The notes under the pieces were generated by a model, which searched no databases, had not been told where the DNA came from, and saw only the letters and a program-made list of their open reading frames with translations. A stretch of 64,000 nucleotides of DNA from Thiomicrorhabdus aquaedulcis (lineage in GTDB: Bacteria > Pseudomonadota > Gammaproteobacteria > Thiomicrospirales > Thiomicrospiraceae). A program made the translations under genes and the position numbers. Shown in pieces: positions 8,731-63,892 of the stretch (position 1 is the stretch's first letter; each line of letters opens with the position of its first letter). The stretch covers positions 620,001 through 684,000 of the forward strand of contig NZ_AP018722.1 in assembly GCF_004001325.1 (NCBI RefSeq). Reading direction: 5' to 3'.

Positions 8731-8748
8731 TTGACCAGGCCTGGTCAA
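8731..8748. repeat. ACCAGGCCTGGT motif, extended palindrome
   Basis: Perfect core at 8734-8745, extended to an 18-base perfect palindrome TTGACCAGGCCTGGTCAA. It lies just after the HDOD gene stop. No T-run follows. Confidence 0.95.
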
Positions 8749-12330: not shown

Positions 12331-13403
<1,073 letters not shown>

Positions 13404-13404
<1 letters not shown>

Positions 13405-13415
13405 CCAGGCCTGGT
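13404..13415. repeat. ACCAGGCCTGGT motif between pheS and pheT
   Basis: Perfect copy. Its last bases with GAG form GGTGAG, a ribosome-binding site for pheT at 13427. Confidence 0.95.
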
Positions 13416-13426
13416 GAGAATACATT

Positions 13427-15817
13427 ATGAAATTAAGTGAACATTGGTTAAGAGAGTGGGTTAATCCGGATTGGGACAGCCACACGTTATCAGAAGAATT
13501 AAGTTTGGCTGGCCTAGAAGTAGATGGTTTAGAACCTGTGGCCGGTGCGTTTACCCACGTGGTGGTCGGGCAGGTTTTGGCGGTAGAAAAACACCCCGAT
13601 GCGGATAAGTTAAACGTCACTCAGGTGGACGTGGGCGCCGATGAGCCCGTGCAAATTGTCTGTGGCGCTAAAAACGTTGTGGTCGGCATGAAAGCGTGTT
13701 GCGCCATGGTTGGGGCGGTGTTGCCTGGAGATTTTCAAATTAAAAAGGCTAAGTTACGCGGCGTTCCGTCTAATGGAATGCTGTGTGGTGCAAGCGAGTT
13801 AGGTTTGCCCGACGACGGCGTAGACGGTTTGCACGTTTTGCCGGCAGACGCGCCCATTGGTTTGGATGTTCGCGAGTATTTAGGGCTAAACGACACAATC
13901 ATTGAAGTGGATTTAACCCCAAATCGTGCCGACTGCTTGAGTGTAGAAGGATTGGCACGTGAAGTTGCGGCCATAAGCCAAGCGCCTTTTAGCGAACCGT
14001 TTGCCATGGTTGAGATGCCTTCTGACCAGGCCTGCTCACAAGCTATTAACGTGCTTGAACCCCAAGCCTGTCCAAAGTATTTGGGTTGCGTGGTCACACA
14101 ATACAACCCGCAAGCCGTTTCGCCGCGTTGGTTGGTGCAAAAGTTACAACGTTCTGGGTTGCGCTCGGTGAGTTTGGTGGTAGACATTACCAACTACGTG
14201 TTGCTTGAACTAGGGCAACCTATGCACGCGTTTGATTTGGACACCTTACAGGGTGCTATCGTTGTGCGCCTTGCCAAAATGGGGGAAACCCTAGTAACCC
14301 TAGACGAAAAAACGCTAACACTAAAGGATACAACCTTGGTGATTGCCGACGACTCTGGGCCGATTGCGTTGGCGGGTATTATGGGTGGTTTGGCCACATC
14401 GGTTACTGAAAAAACCCAGGCTATTTTCTTTGAATGCGCGCATTTTTCACCGCTTTCGGTCACAGGTAAGGCGCGTCAATATGGTTTGCACACTGATTCT
14501 TCACACCGTTTTGAACGTGGCGTTGACCCGCAACTGCCCGAGCGCGCGCTGAACCGTGCGTTAAGTTTGTTTACCCAAATTGCCGGTGGCAATGCCAGTC
14601 AGGTAGTAGCAATGGTGAGTGAAGCGCACTTGACCAAACCCGCAGTGATTGAGCTACGTCGTGAAAAAATTGCCCAGCGTTTAGGCGTTGCGGTCAGTGA
14701 TGAGCAGGTTGAAAGCATCTTTGCCCGTTTGGGCTTTGCCATGCGCACCACCCATCAAGGTTGGAGTTTAACCGCGCCCAGCTACCGTTTTGACATGGCG
14801 ATTGAGATGGACTTGATTGAAGAGATTGGTCGTTTGTATGGCTACAACAATTTGCCCGAAACCCCGGTAAATGCACCGATGACGCTGAATGAATTGCCCG
14901 AGTCGGAACAGGCGTTGTACGCCCTTAAAACCGCATTGGTGCAGCGCGGCTTTAACGAAGTGGTGACCTACAGTTTTGTTGAAGAAGACAAGCAAAAACT
15001 TTTAGCACCCGATTTGCCCTACGTGGTATTGCAAAACCCAATCTCTGATGACATGAAAGCCATGCGCACTACGTTGTTACCAGGCCTGGTCAAAACCATT
15101 GCTTACAATCAAAATCGCCAACAGCCGCGTGTGCGTATTTTTGAGTCGGGCTTGGTGTTTTACAAGAACGAATCCGATCCAACCGGAGCCAGCCAAGTCC
15201 CGATGATAGGGGCGGCGATTGTCGGTTCTATAGCCAATTCGGGCTGGGATGAAGTGACGCGCAACGTCGATTTTTACGATCTAAAAGGCGACGTGGAAAC
15301 CCTGTTAAGAATGAGTCACCAGTTGGGTAAAATTCGTTTTGCCCCAACGCAAAACCCCGCACTGCACCCAGGTCAATCGGCCAGTTTGATAAAAGATGGC
15401 ATGGAAGTTGGGTTTATTGGCCAATTGCATCCCCAGTTGGTTAAGCCCGTGGATGTGAGTGGCGCGGTGTATGTGTTTCAAATTAGGCAAGATGCCTTAA
15501 TGACCATGGACGTACCGAGTGCTCAAGCGATATCTAAGTTTCCCGAAGTGCAGCGCGATTTGGCGTTTGTGGTAGACGAAACGGTTGCGGTGCAAACTTT
15601 ATTGGATGCGGTGTGGTCAGTGCAATCAGATATTTTAAAAGCCGTGGATATTTTTGACGTGTACCGTGGCGCGGGCGTGCAACCGCATCAAAAGAGTGTG
15701 GCATTAACGCTTAAAATTCAACACCACGAACGCACGTTGCAAGACGAAGAAGTCGAAAGCTTGATTGCTCAAGTCTTAAACGCCGCGCAACAGCAAGCCT
15801 GTGCAATATTAAGGTAG
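13427..15817 (+). CDS. pheT: Phenylalanyl-tRNA synthetase beta subunit
   Basis: This 796-residue protein is the normal bacterial PheT length. It has an N-terminal tRNA-binding (EMAP/OB) domain at about residues 40-145 ([12 protein letters not shown]), then B3/B4 editing domains, B5, the degenerate synthetase core, and a C-terminal FDX-ACB anticodon-binding domain (about 705-796, [15 protein letters not shown]). A perfect ACCAGGCCTGGT at 15079-15090 encodes the conserved LPGLVK stretch, and a one-mismatch copy lies at 14025-14036. Confidence 0.97.
15079..15090. repeat. ACCAGGCCTGGT motif inside pheT
   Basis: Perfect copy, read in frame as part of LPGLVK. Confidence 0.95.
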
Positions 15818-21700: not shown

Positions 21701-21883
21701 GCACGCGTTTCGGTCGGAACAGGCCTGGTAGGCGGCATGATTTTTGCCACCTTGTTGGCACCGCTGTTTATTCCAATGTTTTTTCGCTGGATTGCTCAGT
21801 TTTCAGAAAGTACCTCCGAGTGGTTTGCCAATAAACGGGCTACGAATGCCAATAATGCCAACAATACAGGAGAGCTAAAATGA
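18719..21883 (+). CDS. RND multidrug efflux pump, HAE1 family
   Basis: The 1054-residue inner-membrane proton antiporter has 12 expected helices and two large periplasmic loops. The N-terminus MFSRFFIDRPVLATVFS is the HAE1 signature. The proton-relay pair Asp409-Asp410 in GIVVDDAIIVVENVER is present. It is the AcrB/MexB type, most likely exporting drugs or toxic organics. It starts 18 bases after the adaptor gene and overlaps the outer-membrane factor by four bases (ATGA), so the three genes form one operon. A one-mismatch motif copy lies at 21718-21729. Confidence 0.95.
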   Translation: MFSRFFIDRPVLATVFSILIVIAGFLSMKALPVSEYPEIVPPQVNVTATYLGASAETLADTVAAPLEQAINGVDNMLYINSTTSSSGTLSLTVTFDIGTDIDQATINVNNKVQGALSQLPAEVQQLGVKVNKKSPSILKVIALYSADSSLDTVFIANYGLINVVDELSRLPGIGEVRQFGAKDYSMRIWLDPNKMAQFGLSAQEVSTAIKAQNSQFAAGRFGQEPMANEQAFTYTVTTQGRLSDVKEFENIILRAKEDGAMLRLKDIARVELGAQAYDFNATFDGKPTVPMGVFLQPGANALETAKLIDQKMLELAKKFPKGLDYGVPYDTSEFVAISIDKVIFTLLEALVLVVLVVFLFLQNFRATLIPVLAIPVSIIGTFIGMYLLDFSINQLTLFGMILAIGIVVDDAIIVVENVERIMRSTHKSAREATLQAMSEITGPIIAIVLVLAAVFLPVAFIGGLTGEMYKQFAITIVVSVTISGLVALTLTPALCANLLQTEHPKSGWFFTRFNRFFDWVTSGFSSGVKLVMRYSVLSVLLFGGLILITYQTLGQLPKSLLPAEDKGTLFVLSYLPPASALSRTEVVRDEVSNTLLNHPGVEHAISFAGFDLQTFSNKTDSGLSFVKLKHWDERQSPDLSSDAIVKQLFGQLNAIPEAFSMPIGLPTIMGMSMTGGFEAYLQNRTGSGSLMLSQVTDELMAKASERPELNQMRSTFSTGVPQYEAVLDREKAQTMQVSAKEVFAAMQATFGSLYVNDFNLYGRTYKVNLQSEADYREKPEDLAQVFVRSQTGQMIPLSSLVSFKRVTGADVVDRFNLFPAAKLMGEPAPGYSSGQALAAFEEVANEVLPEGYSIGWVGEAYQQKASANAGNQAFLFGLLFVFLILAAQYERWSIPLAVITAVPFAVLGAALAVWLSGLDNDIYFELGLLTLIGLSAKNAILIVEVAMQQRKLGMPLAQAAEYAARLRFRPIVMTSLAFTIAAVPLMLSTGAGAAARVSVGTGLVGGMIFATLLAPLFIPMFFRWIAQFSESTSEWFANKRATNANNANNTGELK

Positions 21884-23355
21884 GAGTGACAGTATTGCAT
21901 CGAGCCATGTGGTTGGCGACCGTCTCAATAGGTGTGGGGTTAAGTGTTGTGATAAGCGGTTGCAGCCAAATCCCTGCTTATCAAGCGCCGAGCACCCCAT
22001 TGCCCGCTGATTGGAATGGGCTGAATAAGACTGAATTAACCCATATTGCGTTAACGCCAACGCCGTTAAGCCAAGCCTCTTTAAACGAAGCGCAATGGTG
22101 GCACGCGTTAAGCGGTGATGCGCAGTTGTATGCGTTAATTGAAGAGGCGCGGGCGCACAATGCCGACGCGCAATTGGCTAAGATTCGGCTGCGTCAAGCC
22201 AATGCGTTGTTGCAACAAAGTCAAGCGGCTCGTTTACCGCAGCTTAATGGCACCTTGGGTTTAGGGCGAACACAAAGCAGTGATCAAGCGTATCCCCAAG
22301 ATCAGGGCGCGACGTTTGGCAATTTTTCACTGGGCGCTTTGCTCAGCTATGAACTGGATGTGTGGGGCAAGGTCGAAGCCGCCGAGCAAAGCGCGCAAGC
22401 CAATGTTAACGCCAGTCAGGCCGATGAAAAAGCGGTTAACTTAAGTGTGAGCGCGGCGGTTGCCAAAGCGTATTTTAATTTACAGGCGTTAAATCAAAAT
22501 TTGTTGCTGGCACAGCAAACTATTCAGTCGCGCACCGAAACCTTGGACTTGCGCCAAACCCAATTAGACTATGGCAGTGTAACGCCCTTAACGGTTTACC
22601 AAGCTCAATCTGAGCTTGCGGCGGTGCAAATTGCCTTGCATCAGTTAACCGAGCAACGTAATTTGCAGTGGAATGCATTGGGCGTTTTAGTAGGGCGCAC
22701 GCCTCAGGCGTTGGTGAATACGCCGCTTGATAAAACGTTGCAAACGCAAAACGCTCAAACCTTCGCAATGCCGTCTATTCCAGTGGGCTTGCCCTCGGAA
22801 CTATTGCAACGTCGTCCAGATATTATCGCAGCCGAGCAGCGTCTAATGGCGGCCAATGCTAATATTGGTGTGGCGCGGGCATCGCTCTATCCCAGCATTA
22901 GCTTAACCGGATTTTTAGGGTTAAAAAGTGAATCGTTAAGTCATGTATTCGATTCAAACGCCGGTGCGTGGAATGCCTCGGCAGATGTGAGCGCGCCTAT
23001 TTTTGACGGTGGACAGCGGCAGGCGCAGGTTGCGTTAACCCAAGCACAACAACAAGCCCAGCTGGTTCAATATCAACAAACGGTGCGTAATGCCTTTAAA
23101 GAGGTGTTGGATGCCTTGGTGCAAATTGAGGGCGCTCAACAACAGTTGGCCGCACAACAGCGACAGGTAGAGGCGTTAAAACAAACGTTGGTATTGGCGC
23201 AAACACGGTTTGACGGCGGGTATTCAAGTTATTTAGAAGTGCTAGATGCTCAGCGTTCTATGTTTAGCGCCGAGCTTACCTGGGTGACTATGCGGTTAAA
23301 TGACACGGCGGCACGCGTTAATTTGTACAAGGCGCTGGGCGGAAGTTGGTTGTAA
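21880..23355 (+). CDS. Outer-membrane efflux lipoprotein, NodT/OprM family
   Basis: The 491-residue channel protein has a lipoprotein signal ending VISGC with the lipid-acceptor Cys28. Two outer-membrane-efflux repeats follow, with long Gln/Ala-rich helices that form the periplasmic tunnel, and the family segment LLQRRPDIIAAEQRL near residue 305. It completes the tripartite pump. A 34-base palindromic terminator lies 52 bases after the stop. Confidence 0.93.
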   Translation: MRVTVLHRAMWLATVSIGVGLSVVISGCSQIPAYQAPSTPLPADWNGLNKTELTHIALTPTPLSQASLNEAQWWHALSGDAQLYALIEEARAHNADAQLAKIRLRQANALLQQSQAARLPQLNGTLGLGRTQSSDQAYPQDQGATFGNFSLGALLSYELDVWGKVEAAEQSAQANVNASQADEKAVNLSVSAAVAKAYFNLQALNQNLLLAQQTIQSRTETLDLRQTQLDYGSVTPLTVYQAQSELAAVQIALHQLTEQRNLQWNALGVLVGRTPQALVNTPLDKTLQTQNAQTFAMPSIPVGLPSELLQRRPDIIAAEQRLMAANANIGVARASLYPSISLTGFLGLKSESLSHVFDSNAGAWNASADVSAPIFDGGQRQAQVALTQAQQQAQLVQYQQTVRNAFKEVLDALVQIEGAQQQLAAQQRQVEALKQTLVLAQTRFDGGYSSYLEVLDAQRSMFSAELTWVTMRLNDTAARVNLYKALGGSWL

Positions 23356-23407: not shown

Positions 23408-23450
23408 GGGTTAAATTGACCAGGCCTGGTCAATTTAACCCATGTTTTTT
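23408..23450. terminator. Palindromic terminator built on the ACCAGGCCTGGT motif
   Basis: A perfect 34-base palindrome (23408-23441, arms of 17 bases, no loop) is centred on a perfect motif copy at 23419-23430 and followed by T6 at 23445-23450. It probably ends the efflux operon. Confidence 0.75.
23419..23430. repeat. ACCAGGCCTGGT motif in the efflux terminator
   Basis: Perfect copy at the centre of the 34-base palindrome. Confidence 0.95.
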
Positions 23451-25621: not shown

Positions 25622-25648
25622 AAAAAATCTCACCAGGCCTGGTGAGAT
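25622..25648 (-). terminator. trxB terminator built on the ACCAGGCCTGGT motif
   Basis: On the minus strand a 22-base perfect palindrome (25648-25627, centred on a perfect motif copy) is followed directly by T6. This is a textbook Rho-independent terminator whose stem is the repeated motif. Confidence 0.85.
25632..25643. repeat. ACCAGGCCTGGT motif in the trxB terminator
   Basis: Perfect copy, flanked symmetrically by ATCTC and GAGAT. Confidence 0.95.
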
Positions 25649-30305: not shown

Positions 30306-31720
30306 TGACGGCCACCCTGTCTGCCGACATGCCGTCTGACGAGCGTATGCCAAGTTCATCCAGTTCACCCAGCGCATCGGGGTATCAACCCTTGTCGGAT
30401 CGACTGCGCCCGCAAACCTTGGCCGACTTTGCCGGGCAAACGCATTTATTGGGCGCCAATCGCGCCTTAAGCCGGGTGTTTGCCTCGGGATTATTGCATT
30501 CCATGATTTTTTGGGGGCCGCCGGGCACCGGTAAAACTACTTTGGCGCGGCTCATCGCCCAGCAGTCGGGTTTGCAATTTATTAGTTTGTCGGCGGTGTT
30601 AGACGGGGTAAAAGCGGTGCGTGCCGCCTTAGAGCAAGCCCGCGCGCATCGCCAGCAGACTAACGTAGGCACCGTACTGTTTGTGGACGAAGTGCATCGC
30701 TTTAACAAAGCCCAACAAGACGCATTTTTACCCTTTGTAGAAGACGGCACGTTTGTGTTTATCGGGGCGACCACCGAAAATCCGTCGTTTGAGCTAAACA
30801 ACGCCCTGCTTTCTCGTGCGCGCGTGTATGTGTTACGCAGTTTAGACCAGGACGAACTGGCCAACGTACTGGAGCGCGGTCGCTTGCGGTTAGAGCACGA
30901 CCGCCAAAATTTGGACGCGCAGTGTGCTTGTCAATTTCACATTGAACCCAAAGCGCAAACTCTGTTAATTGAGGCCGCCGATGGAGATGCGCGGCGTTTG
31001 TTAAATACGCTGGAACAAGCGGCCGACTTTGCGCACGCCTTAGACAGCAATCAACCAGGCCTGGTCACTTTGCAATGGCAAGATTGTTTAGAGGTGATTC
31101 AAGGCGGCGTGCGTCGGTTTGATAAGGGCGGCGAAGCGTTTTACGACCAAATTTCAGCCTTGCACAAGTCGGTTCGTGGCTCTGACCCCGATGCCGCCTT
31201 GTATTGGCTGGTACGCATGTTAGACGGCGGAGTAGACGCGCGTTATTTGGCGCGTCGTTTGGTTAGAATGGCCAGCGAAGAGATTGGCAACGCCGATACC
31301 AAAGCGTTGCAATTGGCGCTCAATGCCGCCGAGGCGTACGAGCGCTTAGGCTCGCCCGAAGGTGATTTGGCACTGGCGCAGGCCGCTGTGTATTTGGCGG
31401 TTGCGCCCAAGTCTAATGCGGCGTACATGGCGTATAAAGCAGTCTTGGCCGACATTAAATCGCAGCCCTCTCTTGAGGTGCCGTTGCATTTACGCAATGC
31501 GCCCACCGCCTTAATGTCGCAACTGGATTACGGCAAGGGCTATCGGTACGCGCACGATGAGCCCGAGGCCTTCGCGGCAGGCGAGTGTTATTTTCCAGAT
31601 GATATGCCGCAAAAAACCTATTATCAGCCGGTAGAAAGAGGGTTGGAAATTAAAATTTCCGCTAAAATGCGCTATCTTCAACAATTAAATCAACAGGCTA
31701 CGTTTAAACGACGACGTTAA
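30305..31720 (+). CDS. rarA: Replication-associated recombination protein A
   Basis: The 471-residue clamp-loader-like AAA+ ATPase (MgsA/RarA) acts at stalled replication forks. Walker A GPPGTGKTT lies near residues 71-79, Walker B LFVDEVHRF near 128, and sensor GATTENPSF after it. A C-terminal tetramerisation domain follows. A perfect ACCAGGCCTGGT at 31054-31065 lies in the coding sequence, and another follows the stop at 31728-31739. Confidence 0.95.
   Translation: MTATLSADMPSDERMPSSSSSPSASGYQPLSDRLRPQTLADFAGQTHLLGANRALSRVFASGLLHSMIFWGPPGTGKTTLARLIAQQSGLQFISLSAVLDGVKAVRAALEQARAHRQQTNVGTVLFVDEVHRFNKAQQDAFLPFVEDGTFVFIGATTENPSFELNNALLSRARVYVLRSLDQDELANVLERGRLRLEHDRQNLDAQCACQFHIEPKAQTLLIEAADGDARRLLNTLEQAADFAHALDSNQPGLVTLQWQDCLEVIQGGVRRFDKGGEAFYDQISALHKSVRGSDPDAALYWLVRMLDGGVDARYLARRLVRMASEEIGNADTKALQLALNAAEAYERLGSPEGDLALAQAAVYLAVAPKSNAAYMAYKAVLADIKSQPSLEVPLHLRNAPTALMSQLDYGKGYRYAHDEPEAFAAGECYFPDDMPQKTYYQPVERGLEIKISAKMRYLQQLNQQATFKRRR
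31054..31065. repeat. ACCAGGCCTGGT motif inside rarA
   Basis: Perfect copy, read in frame as QPGLV. Confidence 0.95.
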
Positions 31721-31727
31721 CGCGTTG

Positions 31728-31739
31728 ACCAGGCCTGGT
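31728..31739. repeat. ACCAGGCCTGGT motif after rarA
   Basis: Perfect copy, eight bases after the rarA stop. Confidence 0.95.
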
Positions 31740-33580: not shown

Positions 33581-33604
33581 CTGACCAGGCCTGGTTAGAT
33601 TTTT
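33581..33604 (+). terminator. Possible serS terminator on the ACCAGGCCTGGT motif
   Basis: A perfect motif copy (33584-33595) extends to an imperfect stem (CTGACCAGG with CCTGGTTAG, one G-T pair), followed by ATTTTT. The stem overlaps the stop of the convergent methyltransferase gene. Confidence 0.5.
33584..33595. repeat. ACCAGGCCTGGT motif after serS
   Basis: Perfect copy between the convergent serS and methyltransferase genes. Confidence 0.95.
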
Positions 33605-33927: not shown

Positions 33928-33939
33928 ACCAGGCCTGGT
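33928..33939. repeat. ACCAGGCCTGGT motif at the methyltransferase start
   Basis: Perfect copy, within the ribosome-binding region of the minus-strand gene starting at 33924. Confidence 0.95.
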
Positions 33940-35897: not shown

Positions 35898-36968
35898 TTA
35901 TTTTAAGTCTGCTAGTCGTGCTTCAATGCTTAGATTTATCTCTTTTAAGCGTTGGTTTTTTTCGCGAATTACATCAAGTTGCTGGGTTAATTCGTCTAAT
36001 GAAAATTCATTTTCAAGCCCGGTTTCGTTTAACGAATAACCGGCTTTTTGAGCGGTGTTAAACGCTCGTTCGGCGGCTGCAAAGGTTGCTTCAATGGCTT
36101 TTTGCGTTCGTTCGGCCGATGCCTGAGCTTTAGCGGTGGTCGCCAAAGCGAGTTGCGTGGCTTCTTGTGCCGATTGCACGACTTGTTGTGCTAGTTGCTG
36201 AGCGTGCTGATCAATACCAATAGCGGTTTCCATGATGGATACGGCGTGAGCGGTTTGCTCTATTAAGGTACGGTCTTCGGCGTTTGTATTATCTTGGCTA
36301 AGCTCGGCAACTGCAGGGATAGCTTCATGAGTTAGTTCATTGGTTGATTGATTGGACGATTGATTAGTTGATGTTTCTGCCAACGTCATTTCAAGTAGCT
36401 CATAGTCTTCATTAGTTTTGTCGTCTAACGCTAAATCTGAAGTTACCAGGCCTGGTGAATCTGTTGTAAGGCTGTTTTCAACGTCTGTTTTGGCTAAGCT
36501 ATCGTCATGAGCCTCATCTAAAGCCACGTCCATATCATCTAAATCATCAATATCATCAGTTACATTTATATTTTCTTGTGCTGTTGGTGTAGAGGTAGAC
36601 TCGATTTCGATTTCGTCATTAAGCGAATCGGCAAATTCATCTTCTAAGCTGTCGGGTAGGGTTTCTAGCAACGCCGTATTGGTCAAAGAAGAAGTGGATG
36701 GATTGTTTTGTGTAACTGAATTTAATAGAGCATCAATGTCAAAATCATCATCGCTGTTGTCTTCATTGTCATCTAGCTGTGCGATTTCATTGGTGATTGG
36801 GACAGATATGTCGGCGGTGGTTTCTTTTTCGGCGCTGACTTGCGCCATTAGCGCGTCAATGTCGTCTAAATCTAAAATATCGTCTTGAGCGTTGTCTGGC
36901 AATTCGCCCATCATGCTCAGCATTTCTTGTGTGGCTAAATCGTCTTTTTCTAAGTTGATTGTGGACAT
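35898..36968 (-). CDS. Acidic coiled-coil protein of unknown function
   Basis: The 356-residue protein is very rich in Asp, Glu and Thr over residues 1-220 and ends in a helical coiled coil (about 230-356, Ala/Gln-rich, AQQLAQQVVQSAQEATQLAL). Two short repeats near the N-terminus, LDDIDALMAQV and FDIDALLNSV, resemble the EIDALL segment at the FliM N-terminus and in other signalling proteins, suggesting a docking peptide. There is no signal peptide or membrane helix. A perfect ACCAGGCCTGGT at 36445-36456 encodes SPGLV. It precedes the membrane coiled-coil gene and probably shares its transcript. Function unknown. Confidence 0.65.
   Translation of the reverse strand: MSTINLEKDDLATQEMLSMMGELPDNAQDDILDLDDIDALMAQVSAEKETTADISVPITNEIAQLDDNEDNSDDDFDIDALLNSVTQNNPSTSSLTNTALLETLPDSLEDEFADSLNDEIEIESTSTPTAQENINVTDDIDDLDDMDVALDEAHDDSLAKTDVENSLTTDSPGLVTSDLALDDKTNEDYELLEMTLAETSTNQSSNQSTNELTHEAIPAVAELSQDNTNAEDRTLIEQTAHAVSIMETAIGIDQHAQQLAQQVVQSAQEATQLALATTAKAQASAERTQKAIEATFAAAERAFNTAQKAGYSLNETGLENEFSLDELTQQLDVIREKNQRLKEINLSIEARLADLK
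36445..36456. repeat. ACCAGGCCTGGT motif in the acidic coiled-coil gene
   Basis: Perfect copy, read on the minus strand as SPGLV. Confidence 0.95.
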
Positions 36969-37168: not shown

Positions 37169-37180
37169 ACCAGGCCTGGT
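37169..37180. repeat. ACCAGGCCTGGT motif at the end of the RluA-family gene
   Basis: Perfect copy whose last base belongs to the stop codon of the minus-strand gene. Confidence 0.95.
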
Positions 37181-44127: not shown

Positions 44128-44139
44128 ACCAGGCCTGGT
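44128..44139. repeat. ACCAGGCCTGGT motif between convergent genes
   Basis: Perfect copy between the HAD phosphatase and Maf genes. No T-run follows. Confidence 0.95.
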
Positions 44140-53077: not shown

Positions 53078-54106
53078 ATGCCTCAATTACAAGCACATCA
53101 CGCTACTCAACATCAATCGTTTCACCAGGCCTGGTTAAATGGTCAAGTTTGTCATACTGTGTCTGTTCACGATCGTGGGTTATTGTATGGTGATGGTTTT
53201 TTTACCACTATGTTGGCGCATCATTTAAGCGTGTTTAATTGGGCTGGGCATTGGGCTCGGTTGCAGTTTTCTGCTCAGCGTTTGGGGTTTGCTCCGTTAG
53301 ATCAAGAGGCACTTTGGCAATATATTAGTACGGCTTTACGCGCCGCGTCCGAGCATACGCCACAGCGCACTTGGATTATTAAACTGCTTATTACCCGTGG
53401 AGAGTGTGCTCAAGGAGGGCGCGGTTACCAAGTGCCCAAACACGCACAACCGCGCTGTTTAGTTTTTGTAAGTGCCGCACCACTGCAATGTGATTTAAAC
53501 TTGGCGTTACCCCGTCAAACGGCTATAACGTTAGGTGTGTCTCCAATTGAGTCCTCTGTGCAAAGCCAGTTGGCCGGGGTAAAACATTTAAATCGGTTGG
53601 ATAACGTGCTGGCGCGAACGCAACTAGCGCAATCGTTAGCCGATTCTTCTGGTACCCGTGATGCGTTAACAGAGTTTAAAGTGGACGACGTTCTCATGCT
53701 CAACGCCTTAGGGTATGTGGTGTGCAGTACGCAAGCCAATGTGTTTATGCTCAAAGACAACGTGCTTTACACCCCAAAACTCAATAAAAGTGGGGTGTTG
53801 GGCACCACGCGTGAGGTATTGTTAACGTTGGCAAACGGATTACCAAGTCGGCTTTATATGGCTAAGCACGCGATGGAGATTGATTTAACCTTACATGACT
53901 TAGGCCAAGCCGATGAGTTGTTTTTGGCAAACGCCGTTCGCGGCATTGTGCCTGTAAGCTGTTTAATGGATGACATCACGAATCTAAACGCCATTGATAA
54001 TGCCCATACACCTAACATTAAAACCTTTACCACCAAGTCGCGTGAGCAGATTCACCAGGCCTGGTCAGATTGGCAAGTATCGAACGCCAAGTCTGTACAC
54101 GAATAG
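53078..54106 (+). CDS. pabC: 4-amino-4-deoxychorismate lyase
   Basis: The 342-residue PLP enzyme releases pyruvate to give p-aminobenzoate. It is fold-type IV, with GDGFFTTML near residue 38 and the PLP-binding Lys in GVKHLNRLDNVLA. It is longer at both ends than E. coli PabC. Two perfect copies of the palindrome, at 53124-53135 and 54054-54065, encode HQAWL and HQAWS near the N- and C-termini, outside conserved parts. Confidence 0.92.
   Translation: MPQLQAHHATQHQSFHQAWLNGQVCHTVSVHDRGLLYGDGFFTTMLAHHLSVFNWAGHWARLQFSAQRLGFAPLDQEALWQYISTALRAASEHTPQRTWIIKLLITRGECAQGGRGYQVPKHAQPRCLVFVSAAPLQCDLNLALPRQTAITLGVSPIESSVQSQLAGVKHLNRLDNVLARTQLAQSLADSSGTRDALTEFKVDDVLMLNALGYVVCSTQANVFMLKDNVLYTPKLNKSGVLGTTREVLLTLANGLPSRLYMAKHAMEIDLTLHDLGQADELFLANAVRGIVPVSCLMDDITNLNAIDNAHTPNIKTFTTKSREQIHQAWSDWQVSNAKSVHE
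53124..53135. repeat. ACCAGGCCTGGT motif near the pabC 5' end
   Basis: Perfect copy, read as HQAWL. Confidence 0.95.
54054..54065. repeat. ACCAGGCCTGGT motif near the pabC 3' end
   Basis: Perfect copy, read as HQAWS. Confidence 0.95.
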
Positions 54107-57822: not shown

Positions 57823-59664
57823 ATGCGTCCTGTCGCGTCTTCAGCGGGTTCACCAGGCCTGGTTAAAAAGGTGGTGGCTTTGTCCGAACGCTCTTACACG
57901 TGGGAGCGCATTTTTGAATTGGTGGTGCGCCATAAAGCGGCGTTAATTAAAGCGCATATTATCGCCTTTTTAGCCGTGCTAATGACCGTGCCGCTGCCCA
58001 TGTTGTTGCCGTTTTTGGTCGACGAAGTGCTGCTGGATAAACCTGGATTTATTGTCGGGTTTTTAAACACCCTGGTTACACCCGAGTGGCATGGTGCGAT
58101 TTACTACATTGTCGCCATCACCCTGATTACCATTGTTTTGCGGTTGTTTGGACTGGTGTTTGGCGTGTGGCAAATGCAGCAATTTACCGTGATTTCAAAA
58201 GAGGTGACGTTTCAAATTAGGCGCGATTTACTGGCGCGCGTGCAAGGCGTGGCCATGGCGCAATACGAAACCATGGGCAGTGGCAGTGTGTCGGCCACCA
58301 TGGTAAACGACGTCAACACCATTGATAACTTTTTAGGCACCACCGTAGGCAAGCTGATTATTGCCGTGTTTAGTTTGGTGGGCATGACCGCCATTTTGCT
58401 TTGGTTGCACTGGCAACTGGCACTGTTTATTGTGTTGATGAACCCCATTGTGATCTACTTTACAATGCGCATGGGGCGTAAGGTTAAAACCCTTAAAAAA
58501 GACGAAAACTCAGCGATGGATGCGTTTCAACAATCGCTGACCGAAACCTTAGACGCATTACAACAAGTGCGTGCGGCCAATCAAGACAGCTCATTTTTTG
58601 ACCGAATTAGAGGCAAAGCCAAAGCCATTCGCCACCATTCCGAAGCCTTTACCTGGAAGAGCGATGCGGCGAGCCGTTTTTCGTTTATGATTTTTTTAGT
58701 CGGCTTTGATATTTTTAGAGGTGCCGGCATGCTCATGGTGGTGTTTGCCGACCTGTCCATTGGTGAGATGATTGCCGTGTTTGGGTACCTGTGGTTTATG
58801 ATGGGACCGGTGCAAGAAATCTTGGCCATTCAATACAGTTACAGTGCCGCCAGTGGCGCGTTGCAACGGGTTAACGAAGTGTTGGACTTGCAACAAGAAC
58901 CCGCCTATCCACAAACCGTTAATCCGTTTGTGGGTAACCAGGCCGTTGGCGGGGTGAGCGTGGCGGTGAAAGACCTGGCGTTTCACTACCCCGGTAAAAC
59001 CGATTTGGTGCTTAATCACCTTAACTTTGAAATAAAACCGGGCGAAAAACTCGCCCTGGTGGGGGCGAGCGGCGGTGGCAAAACCACCTTGGTGCAACTG
59101 CTATTGGGCTTTTACGAGGCCAGCTCGGGCAAAGTGTTGTACAACGATTGCCCCATTGAACTCATTGGTCAATCGGTGGTGCGTACCCATGTGGCTACGG
59201 TGCTGCAAGCACCGGTGTTGTTTCACCAAACCATTCGCTTTAACTTAACCTTGGGGCAACCCATGAGCGACGAGGCCTTGTGGCACGCCCTGAGTTTGGC
59301 GCAGTTAACCGATACCGTTAAAAAACTCGACCTGCAATTGGAGTCGATTGTGGGACGCAACGGCATTAAACTATCGGGTGGGCAACGCCAGCGCTTGGCC
59401 ATTGCGCGCATGATTTTGCAAGACCCCAAAGTGGTGATTATGGACGAGGCCACGTCGGCGCTGGACATGGAAACCGAGCGCCAGTTGTATTTGGCACTCG
59501 CGCCGTTTTTAGAAAATCGTACCACGCTGATTGTGGCGCACCGTTTAAGTTCTATTCGCCAAGCAGATCGTATTTTGGTGTTTGAAGACGGTCATATTAT
59601 TGAAAGCGGCAGCCACGAAGACTTATTAGCGCAACAAGGCACGTACCATAAGTTGTATCGTTGA
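57823..59664 (+). CDS. ABC exporter, half transporter with fused ATPase
   Basis: The 613-residue protein has a six-helix ABC membrane domain (about residues 40-330) and a C-terminal ATPase with Walker A GASGGGKTT near residue 411, signature LSGGQRQR, and Walker B VVIMDEATSALD. It would work as a homodimer, like MsbA. There is no substrate clue in the neighbours: tatD ends two bases before it, and gatC follows in a separate unit. A perfect motif copy at 57852-57863 encodes SPGLV in the N-terminal tail. Confidence 0.9.
   Translation: MRPVASSAGSPGLVKKVVALSERSYTWERIFELVVRHKAALIKAHIIAFLAVLMTVPLPMLLPFLVDEVLLDKPGFIVGFLNTLVTPEWHGAIYYIVAITLITIVLRLFGLVFGVWQMQQFTVISKEVTFQIRRDLLARVQGVAMAQYETMGSGSVSATMVNDVNTIDNFLGTTVGKLIIAVFSLVGMTAILLWLHWQLALFIVLMNPIVIYFTMRMGRKVKTLKKDENSAMDAFQQSLTETLDALQQVRAANQDSSFFDRIRGKAKAIRHHSEAFTWKSDAASRFSFMIFLVGFDIFRGAGMLMVVFADLSIGEMIAVFGYLWFMMGPVQEILAIQYSYSAASGALQRVNEVLDLQQEPAYPQTVNPFVGNQAVGGVSVAVKDLAFHYPGKTDLVLNHLNFEIKPGEKLALVGASGGGKTTLVQLLLGFYEASSGKVLYNDCPIELIGQSVVRTHVATVLQAPVLFHQTIRFNLTLGQPMSDEALWHALSLAQLTDTVKKLDLQLESIVGRNGIKLSGGQRQRLAIARMILQDPKVVIMDEATSALDMETERQLYLALAPFLENRTTLIVAHRLSSIRQADRILVFEDGHIIESGSHEDLLAQQGTYHKLYR
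57852..57863. repeat. ACCAGGCCTGGT motif in the ABC exporter gene
   Basis: Perfect copy, read as SPGLV. Confidence 0.95.
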
Positions 59665-59708: not shown

Positions 59709-59728
59709 TTTGACCAGGCCTGGTCAAA
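59709..59728. repeat. ACCAGGCCTGGT motif, extended palindrome
   Basis: Perfect core at 59713-59724, extended to a 20-base perfect palindrome with TTTG and CAAA. It lies between the ABC exporter and gatC. A weak T content follows. Confidence 0.95.
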
Positions 59729-63058: not shown

Positions 63059-63892
63059 ATGAACCAGGTGCAAATTGGCGCGCATACGGTGGCGTTGGTG
63101 CGCACCACGCGCAAGCAATCGTTGGCGCTTAAATTTAAACCCAGCGGCGTGGCGTTATTGGTGCCTCGGCATTTGTCGCAGGCACACATAATGCGTTTGC
63201 TCAGCGTTCACCAGGCCTGGTTAGTTGAGCAATTAGAACGCTATGCGCAACGCGTGCCACCATCACCGCAATCACCGCAATCACCATACGCGCTAGCGTC
63301 GAGCGCAAACCCCGCATTTAAGGTGCAAGACGGGGCGCAGTTTGAGTGGTTGGGCAACCACGTCACCGTGCGCGTGTTACCAGGCCTGGTTAATTCTTCG
63401 TTGTCTGCTTCTTTTCAGTCTTCTAATACGCTTAATAAGGCGCTTAATAATGCGCTCAATTATGTTGAATGGCGGTGGGACGACAACGTCTTGGGCGTGC
63501 ACGCGCCTGCGCTAGAAGCGGTGCAAGCGCATTTGCCCAGCGCGTTTAAACAGCAGCTTATGGAGCGCGCTCACGCCTACATTGCCCCAAAATTGGCACA
63601 TTACGCGCAACACATTGGAGTAAATGTGCGTCAATTGCACATTAAAACCTACAAATCGCGTTGGGGCAGTTGTTACACCGACGGACGCATTCAATTTAAC
63701 TGGCGCTTAATGCAAGCCCCAGCATTTGTGGTCGATTATGTGATTGTGCACGAACTGTGTCATCTTATTCACGCCAATCATTCGGCGCATTTTTGGCGCC
63801 TGGTAAGCCAATACTACCCGCAAACGCCCGCCGCAAAAGCCTATTTAAAAACCCACGGCCGCCGTTTAATTACCTTTTTAGACGGGGTTTAG
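63059..63892 (+). CDS. YgjP-like (DUF45) metallopeptidase
   Basis: The 277-residue protein has the DUF45 pattern, with KSRWGSC and the zinc motif HELCHLIHANHSAHFW (His, His, then a further His ligand). It resembles SprT-like or WLM peptidases. An inserted Pro/Ser/Asn-rich stretch near residues 70-140 is unusual. Two perfect palindrome copies, 169 bases apart, encode HQAWL and LPGLV. It begins 32 bases after gatB. Confidence 0.85.
   Translation: MNQVQIGAHTVALVRTTRKQSLALKFKPSGVALLVPRHLSQAHIMRLLSVHQAWLVEQLERYAQRVPPSPQSPQSPYALASSANPAFKVQDGAQFEWLGNHVTVRVLPGLVNSSLSASFQSSNTLNKALNNALNYVEWRWDDNVLGVHAPALEAVQAHLPSAFKQQLMERAHAYIAPKLAHYAQHIGVNVRQLHIKTYKSRWGSCYTDGRIQFNWRLMQAPAFVVDYVIVHELCHLIHANHSAHFWRLVSQYYPQTPAAKAYLKTHGRRLITFLDGV
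63210..63221. repeat. ACCAGGCCTGGT motif in the YgjP-like gene (1)
   Basis: Perfect copy, read as HQAWL. Confidence 0.95.
63379..63390. repeat. ACCAGGCCTGGT motif in the YgjP-like gene (2)
   Basis: Perfect copy, read as LPGLV. Confidence 0.95.

Follow-up and report, generated by a model that had tools for sequence, protein, structure and literature searches.

Positions 23408-23441 (plus strand) of the window, by which we mean the whole 64-kb stretch of DNA that was analysed, form a perfect, terminator-like palindrome of 34 bases. Its centre (23419-23430) is a 12-mer, ACCAGGCCTGGT, of which the window holds 18 perfect copies, as originally counted. The locus raises the question of whether this word is part of a transcription terminator or a signal of another kind that has been put to use at gene ends. 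The RNA of the palindrome is predicted to form a stem of 15 bp capped by a GGCC tetraloop (-23.3 kcal/mol, z -5.4), and the gene upstream encodes an efflux outer-membrane subunit (21880-23355; NCBIfam). The original prediction had described this palindrome together with a T6 tract, a second palindrome with T6 behind trxB and an imperfect stem with T5 behind serS. All three were found as described, with small refinements. The T6 tract of the first (23445-23450, plus strand) starts three bases (ATG) past the palindrome end. The second, a 22-base perfect palindrome read on the minus strand (25627-25648, centred on the copy at 25632-25643), lies just past the low end (25668) of the thioredoxin reductase gene trxB (NCBIfam). 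It folds with a GGCC tetraloop (-12.7 kcal/mol, z -4.6) and leads on the minus strand into a T6 whose first T is still inside the palindrome. The third is a stem with one G-U pair (33581-33598, plus strand) around the copy at 33584-33595, 11 bases downstream of the stop (33569) of the serine-tRNA ligase gene serS (NCBIfam) and followed by an A and then T5; it too folds with a GGCC tetraloop (-8.0 kcal/mol, z -2.3), and 6 of 200 shuffles fold equally well.

Strong folding was also predicted for an intergenic copy at 59713-59724 (z -3.9), which lies within a 20-base palindrome (59709-59728). Further intergenic copies were located at 8734-8745, where the palindrome reaches 18 bases, and at 33928-33939 and 53124-53135, while the copy at 13404-13415 touches the stop codon of the gene at 12406-13404 and that at 44128-44139 lies in the gap of a convergent gene pair. 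Not every gene-end copy of the word is a good hairpin: the one located 7 bases past the rarA stop (31728-31739) is weak (z -0.9), and that of the intergenic copy at 37169-37180, folded on the minus strand, is unremarkable (z +0.6). The copies at 15079-15090, 31054-31065 (rarA, at about codon 250), 36445-36456, 54054-54065, 57852-57863, 63210-63221 and 63379-63390 lie within genes. Ten of the 18 copies had been reported as intergenic or touching a stop codon; our own gene calls, counted by eye, give 11.

Abundance, placement and spellings of the word

Allowing for up to two mismatches, the window contains 32 matches to ACCAGGCCTGGT, compared to 1.78 expected from shuffles. The genome to which the window belongs (2.54 Mb, in contigs of 2.44 Mb and 96.8 kb) contains 718 perfect copies, and none of the backward control. 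Among FtsK relatives, those ranked best mostly bear the name Thiomicrorhabdus. For placement analyses, we used a 464-kb sample of this genome (18%), made up of the window and 20 stretches of 20 kb, in which genes were called by a simple script. The sample contains 132 copies, compared to 0.05 expected under a third-order Markov model. Genomes from other families of the class (15 genomes) carry 0 or 1 copy each, and the 16-mer TGACCAGGCCTGGTCA is present in 3 stretches of a viral collection. Even spacing of the word is not claimed, as two spacing tests disagree: copy numbers in the 20 stretches of 20 kb varied less than a Poisson process predicts (mean 5.7, variance 1.69), whereas the gaps between 100 consecutive sites showed no such evenness (CV 0.90, KS P 0.28; bin variance/mean 0.88).

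The intergenic excess seen in the window, for which a wider count had been proposed, extends to the sample, where 71 of the 132 copies are extragenic or in contact with a gene end (about 25 expected) and 61 lie wholly inside genes (107 expected; P 4e-19). Convergent gaps were enriched 8-fold (18 copies versus 2.3 expected) and same-strand gaps held 43 copies (15.8 expected), while divergent gaps held 9 (4.8 expected; P 0.05) and a single copy of the 132 was located at a stretch end. By these counts, the bias is toward gene ends and not toward promoters. Copies may gather at the positions under the weakest sequence constraint, chiefly just downstream of stop codons and in the gaps of convergent gene pairs.

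In-gene copies occupy all three reading frames (33, 22 and 6), and they share their flank preference with the copies outside genes: position +2 is A in 75% and 87%, respectively, and +5 is rarely A. Around the palindromic core these preferences are symmetric, and a search of the window's own genome for a one-sided A/T tract revealed no asymmetry beyond chance. The 12-mer resembles inserted repeats such as REPs and MITEs only in being palindromic and enriched between genes. We find such an origin barely credible, as the copies share no longer unit and strong base preferences end roughly 10 bases from the core on either side, nearly half of them (61/132) are located in genes in all three frames, and the spelling at one and the same site changes by substitution (see below). 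The 12-mer is probably the central part of a recognition word at the level of DNA, roughly TNACCAGGCCTGGTNA in this genome, that would be kept at hundreds of places.

Related words were sought by comparing k-mer counts with a third-order Markov model in sampled stretches of genomes in the genus. We refer to genomes with many or few copies of the word as rich or poor. ACCAGGCCTGGT was the enriched word in the window's own genome (G000), in G006, G009, G015, G016 and G021, and thinly in G007. The enriched word was AGCAGGCCTGCT in G008 and AACAGGCCGGGT in G020, while the half-site AACA was found in G005, G018 and G002; in G005 its partner is often AGCA or ACCA. G023 contains 1025 copies of ACCGGCCGGT (backward control, 1), which other genomes carry at most 15 times. 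By the same comparison, no such word was detected in the samples of G003, G011, G013, G014, G019 and G024. A candidate second dispersed word in G024, GAATCCGAGTCA, was rejected, as its copies belong to a single tandem array of 18-base units (L146, 8000-8263; 14 units found). All of the enriched spellings found centre on GGCC, and most of the sampled rich genomes have a palindromic word. The G020 word (roughly AAAACTCAACAGGCCGGGTA; L123, L152, L153, L154) is not symmetric and has an A-rich tract on just one of its sides.

Richness in words of the CAGGCCTG type, defined as at least 100 copies of ANCAGGCCTGNT, was observed in 32 of 62 family genomes, and one more genome (G023) is rich in ACCGGCCGGT. 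Two genomes have 21 to 24 copies of ANCAGGCCTGNT and the rest have 0 to 6, with at most 4 of the backward control. By genus, the rich genomes make up 15 of 32 in g1, 7 of 11 in g18, all nine in g21 (522 to 798 copies each), the one genome of g22 and none of the nine in g17, g19 and g20. Poor genomes are interspersed among rich ones in SerS and TrxB trees, in which many forks are weak. G005, G018 and G020 form one clade in the SerS tree (99/96), which would group the asymmetric spelling with the AACA half-site; they are not grouped in the TrxB tree.

The in-gene copy at 31054 lies in a stretch of rarA that varies in length and sequence between genomes. Of the 36 loci tried, a match to rarA was present in 24, and 22 extended over the site, 19 of them distinct (G010 was not counted, as its locus starts past the site). 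A version of the word was present in 9 of the 19 distinct loci. It is spelled ACCAGGCCTGGT in G000, G076, G054 and strain NP51, GCCAGGCCTGGT in G044, ATCAGGCCTGGT in L008, AACAGGCCTGCT in G005 and GACAGGCCTGTT in G018, and in G020 it is exactly the G020 word. The protein varies in the residues encoded there (QPGLVTL, STGLLSL, ETGLLVL and QPGLLSL). The ten loci without the word are mostly from poor genomes, and also include G049 and G023. At this site, then, the spelling switches in place, by substitution. As the site is far from the gene end, the word would be kept there as DNA.

Gene-end hairpins and termination

A 12-mer on its own can form only a 4-bp stem (-2.0 kcal/mol), and complementary flanks are therefore needed for a stable hairpin. 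The original prediction, in which a single copy is itself a palindrome and needs no inverted partner, is in this respect not supported as it stood, since one copy makes the hairpin only together with such flanks. Its proposal to look for complementarity beyond the 12 bases proved fruitful, as gene-end copies exceeded chance and in-gene copies did not. The flanks of the 61 gene-end copies (those in same-strand and convergent gaps of the 464-kb sample) add a mean of 1.80 pairs, compared to 0.83 after re-pairing (0 of 5000 permutations as high), while those of the 61 in-gene copies add 0.51 (0.60 after re-pairing). Five or more extra pairs were found for only 7 of the 61 gene-end copies in this own-genome sample (1.4 expected). 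Gene-end flank complementarity was likewise detected around the other spellings in G023 (P 0.008), G005 (P 0.006), G008 (P 0.005; 9 copies) and G018 (P 0.05; 5 copies only), and in five pooled genomes that share the spelling of the window's genome (P 0.0003).

The 3' ends of trxB and serS were compared in the 30 best-matching of 62 genomes for each gene and in strain NP51 (31 per gene). The core NNCAGGCCTGNN follows trxB at 11 of 31 gene ends and serS at 13 of 31. Stems extend beyond it by a mean of 7.55 pairs after trxB and 5.85 pairs after serS, compared to 1.75 and 1.83 pairs when flanks are swapped between species. The shortest extensions were those of G010 after trxB (3 pairs) and of G000 (3), G015 (1) and G018 (1) after serS. 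On centred alignments, 96.4% of the trxB cells and 91.1% of the serS cells are paired, and six and five pairs, respectively, have changed on both sides. The covariation score was 0.560 for trxB (0.168 shuffled) and 0.414 for serS (0.147 shuffled; 9 distinct of 13 rows), with 0 of 500 shuffles as high in either case, and all five measures fall for both genes when the pairing partners are slid. In these alignments, the word is kept in the trxB and serS hairpins while the stems differ between species, mostly staying complementary. Such covarying stems show directly how a DNA word gets captured as a gene-end hairpin. Some gene-end copies would have acquired complementary flanks, which put the word at the tip of an RNA hairpin capped by a GGCC tetraloop. 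Together with a T tract, such a hairpin could end transcription, the polymerase presumably stopping there.

The gene ends of individual genomes differ in several ways. The serS stem of G005 contains AACAGGCCTGTT, G023 has two ACCGGCCGGT words after serS, and at the same place G020 carries an inverted pair of its asymmetric spelling, one copy with one base changed. The poor genomes G003, G013, G014, G024 and G066 have ordinary stems, or none that is clear, at the gene ends seen. Ordinary stems lacking the word are also present in several rich genomes, for example, after trxB in G005, G008, G018, G061 and G076 and after serS in G002, G008 and G010. The trxB hairpins of G010, G015, G021 and NP51 have no sense-strand T tract of at least four bases right after the stem and so may be 3' stabilisers rather than terminators.

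Of the gene ends in the own-genome sample, 19 of the 53 that carry the word have a hairpin with a T tract, compared to 28 of the 196 that lack it (P 7e-4); 9 of 249 letter-shuffled regions have one. Just 9 of the 19 hairpins (9/53 gene ends) include the word in their stem. On the antisense strand, a hairpin and T tract can be read at 13 of the 53 and at 17 of the 196, respectively, which suggests that part of the excess may stem from palindromes as such and from convergent gaps. Downstream T-richness in same-strand gaps was nearly the same on the sense and antisense strands (3.56 versus 3.49 T per 10 bases; P 0.98), and runs of four or more T occurred in 17 of 43 versus 10 of 43 (P 0.08).

Intrinsic (Rho-independent) terminators consist of a stable stem and a T tract at a gene end, and this arrangement is found at 23408, after trxB and after serS; most copies of the word lack it. 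Unlike in ordinary intrinsic terminators, the loop-proximal 12 bases are fixed here and come from a word that is also found inside genes. The view that the word forms terminator stems stands in part. It is backed by the gene-end enrichment, by the hairpin apices formed by some copies and by the recurrence after trxB and serS, while the scarcity of long stems, the lack of a T bias and the almost equally frequent antisense hairpins weigh against it. A terminator role is likely, on present sequence comparisons, for a minority of copies, and termination would be a second use of the word.

It could be argued instead that termination is the primary function, with the word being the favoured GGCC-tetraloop apex of terminators in this family; the 8-fold enrichment in convergent gaps, the excess of hairpins with T tracts (19/53 versus 28/196) and the covarying stems would all be accounted for. 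We nevertheless consider this quite improbable. The 61 copies in genes have the same flank preference as the others, the word is part of the stem in only 9 of the 19 hairpins, the antisense reading gives 13 of 53, and the rarA site is far from a gene end. Moreover, the nonpalindromic G020 spelling cannot make the 4-bp stem alone, and poor genomes have ordinary terminators at the same genes.

Plasmid depletion and candidate readers

The word is depleted on the second contig of the window's genome, with 4 copies in 60 kb compared to about 17.6 expected (P 1e-4). This 96.8-kb contig (G000 C2; L186, L224, L225) is a plasmid, and probably a conjugative one, judging by the Rep3, TraN and ParA/ParB proteins among 10 proteins of one 20-kb stretch. 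Depletion would be expected of an uptake word, or of another word of the chromosomal lineage, and it could also reflect foreign origin in general. Genes on the plasmid encode Rep3, an F-type TraN, a protein with ParA-like and ParB_N domains, the recombination proteins RecT and YqaJ, and an EcoRI-type methylase beside a GmrSD/HNH-domain protein.

A trans-acting factor would have to read the word, and the DNA-uptake machinery of natural transformation is the most likely candidate; the word would then mark self DNA for uptake. ComEC was detected in 56 of 62 genomes, including the window's own, and does not discriminate, since some of these genomes are poor in the word. Pilin-type N termini were found in all 12 genomes examined (7 rich, 5 poor), as were pilin clusters, which in nine are located beside a miaB-like gene that we take, from its protein, to be miaB. 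When the pilins of these 7 rich genomes were compared with those of the 5 poor ones, they all clustered in a single group of 63, and therefore no receptor was identified. The only group of three or more members that was confined to rich genomes is a short protein present in 3 of the 7 rich and in none of the 5 poor genomes. A GspH/FimT pilin was rejected as the receptor, as the model matched in only 3 of 62 genomes (G011, G064 and G019; L207, L208, L209), all of them poor in the word. The pilin cluster next to the MiaB-like gene (L210, L212, L213, L214, L219, L220, L221, L222, L223) encodes a conserved small pilin of about 180 to 210 amino acids in several genomes, and in the window's genus it also encodes unusually large (460 to 550 amino acids) N-methylated pilin-like proteins, which are frequently present more than once. 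A cluster of pilin-like genes in the window's genome lies at G000:C1 1834594-1841378.

The main rival to a reader of this kind is an abundant homodimeric protein that organises or regulates the chromosome and whose specificity drifts, with the gene-end bias reflecting avoidance of promoters and codons. A palindromic core with symmetric flank preferences would suit such a protein, as would sites that are spread over the chromosome, depleted on the plasmid and respelled in place. Indeed, the palindromic main spelling fits a homodimeric binder of any kind. Known sites of the nucleoid or segregation type, however, number in the tens and not about 700, and the scatter of poor genomes between rich ones in the trees of SerS and TrxB would be odd for a core chromosome protein. 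The G020 word is a further obstacle to this rival, as it is asymmetric and its A-rich tract flanks a single side. The uptake sequences known from other bacteria have an orientation, and a one-sided A-rich tract resembles them, so the G020 spelling favours a word of the uptake kind. Overall, we regard a chromosome protein as rather unlikely.

Taken together, dialects, scattered absence, permissive placement, plasmid depletion and hairpin capture make up the profile of an uptake sequence. The abundance of the word, its lineage spellings, its gene-end enrichment and its complementary and covarying flanks are established at the level of sequence. On this footing, the word probably belongs to a palindromic uptake-sequence-like system with dialects by lineage, partly co-opted for termination. 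The lineages of the family carry different spellings around the GGCC core. In a more specific form, the family of sulfur-oxidising bacteria around Thiomicrorhabdus would mark its own DNA with uptake sequences that consist of two half-sites flanking GGCC and form palindromes in most of the sampled rich lineages. These would drift half-site by half-site (as in the mixed pair of AACA and ACCC in G020, whose relatives in the SerS tree have the AACA half-site), be shorter by one base per side in G023, and be reused as the fixed tip of freely evolving gene-end hairpins; we give this version about an even chance.

Comparison with known repeated words

In the terminators of Neisseria and Haemophilus, uptake sequences are described as inverted pairs in the excerpted text of PMC1852404. 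The original prediction had taken the terminator stems as support for an uptake signal. The parallel is apt, with the inverted pair after serS in G020 as an example, but terminator stems alone are no proof, and what strengthens the uptake reading is the existence of dialects, the in-gene site in rarA and the scarcity of the word on the plasmid.

The DUS of Neisseriaceae are similar in having hundreds or more copies, lineage spellings and terminator hairpins, as far as covered in excerpts of PMC3630211 and PMC1852404. They differ in sequence and family, and a DUS hairpin is an inverted pair, whereas here the main spelling is itself palindromic, so that one copy with complementary flanks makes the hairpin. 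The USS of Pasteurellaceae likewise have a short core and form inverted pairs in terminators (PMC1852404, in part), but their core, AAGTGCGGT, is unrelated, and in most of the sampled rich genomes the word described here is a palindrome. Neither this core nor that of DUS, GCCGTCTGAA, corresponds to the enriched words, all of which are centred on GGCC, and because of these different cores the word is neither a DUS nor a USS proper. The flank of USS resembles the one-sided A/T tract of the G020 spelling.

The cyanobacterial HIP1 is also a short palindrome iterated genome-wide, with other versions in exceptional lineages (PMC4390886, in part). A word of this kind, upheld by methylation-linked repair at its GGCC core, would agree with the short palindrome, the hundreds of copies, the GGCC core common to all spellings and the C5-methyltransferase gene in the window's own genome. 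Yet the C5-methyltransferase family PF00145 was not found in the nine g21 genomes nor in G005, G015, G018, G021 and G045, and the N4/N6 methyltransferase family PF01555 was not found in G000, G009, G015, G016, G021, G045 and G076. These two families do not track the word across genomes, and, unlike HIP1, the word has a strong gene-end bias and a use in terminators. A HIP1-like origin is therefore very improbable. The C5-cytosine methyltransferase gene of the window's genome is a lone one (G000:C1:743279-744253; L206).

The 12-mer ACCAGGCCTGGT was found in no paper in a search of the open literature, with subscription papers and preprints outside its scope. Among the matches listed in the open literature, none was about such a word in Thiomicrospiraceae, judged by title and start of the abstract, and none reported an experiment on DNA uptake or transformation in this family. 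Uptake words are described for the terminators of Neisseriaceae and Pasteurellaceae in a 2026 terminator survey that covered thousands of genomes (PMC13020248, in part), and the names Thiomicro-, Hydrogenovibrio and Piscirickettsia- are absent from its main text. On our best reading, an uptake-sequence-like system is new for this family, within the literature that could be searched. If this is true, a third, environmental family, with a palindromic word, several dialects and patchy absence, would provide a fresh test of the way in which uptake specificity evolves and of whether it sets up species barriers, and adding the word to donor DNA could be a simple way to transform these chemolithoautotrophs.

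A repeat of a different type was observed in the same genome. The sequence CAGTGGCCATCA recurs 24 times at an exact spacing of 267 bases (L088, 82-6235; G000:C1, about 120082-126235). An open frame spans the first 6300 bases of L088 and contains a near-identical 89-residue repeat; it probably encodes a giant repetitive surface protein of the cadherin/VCBS-like type.
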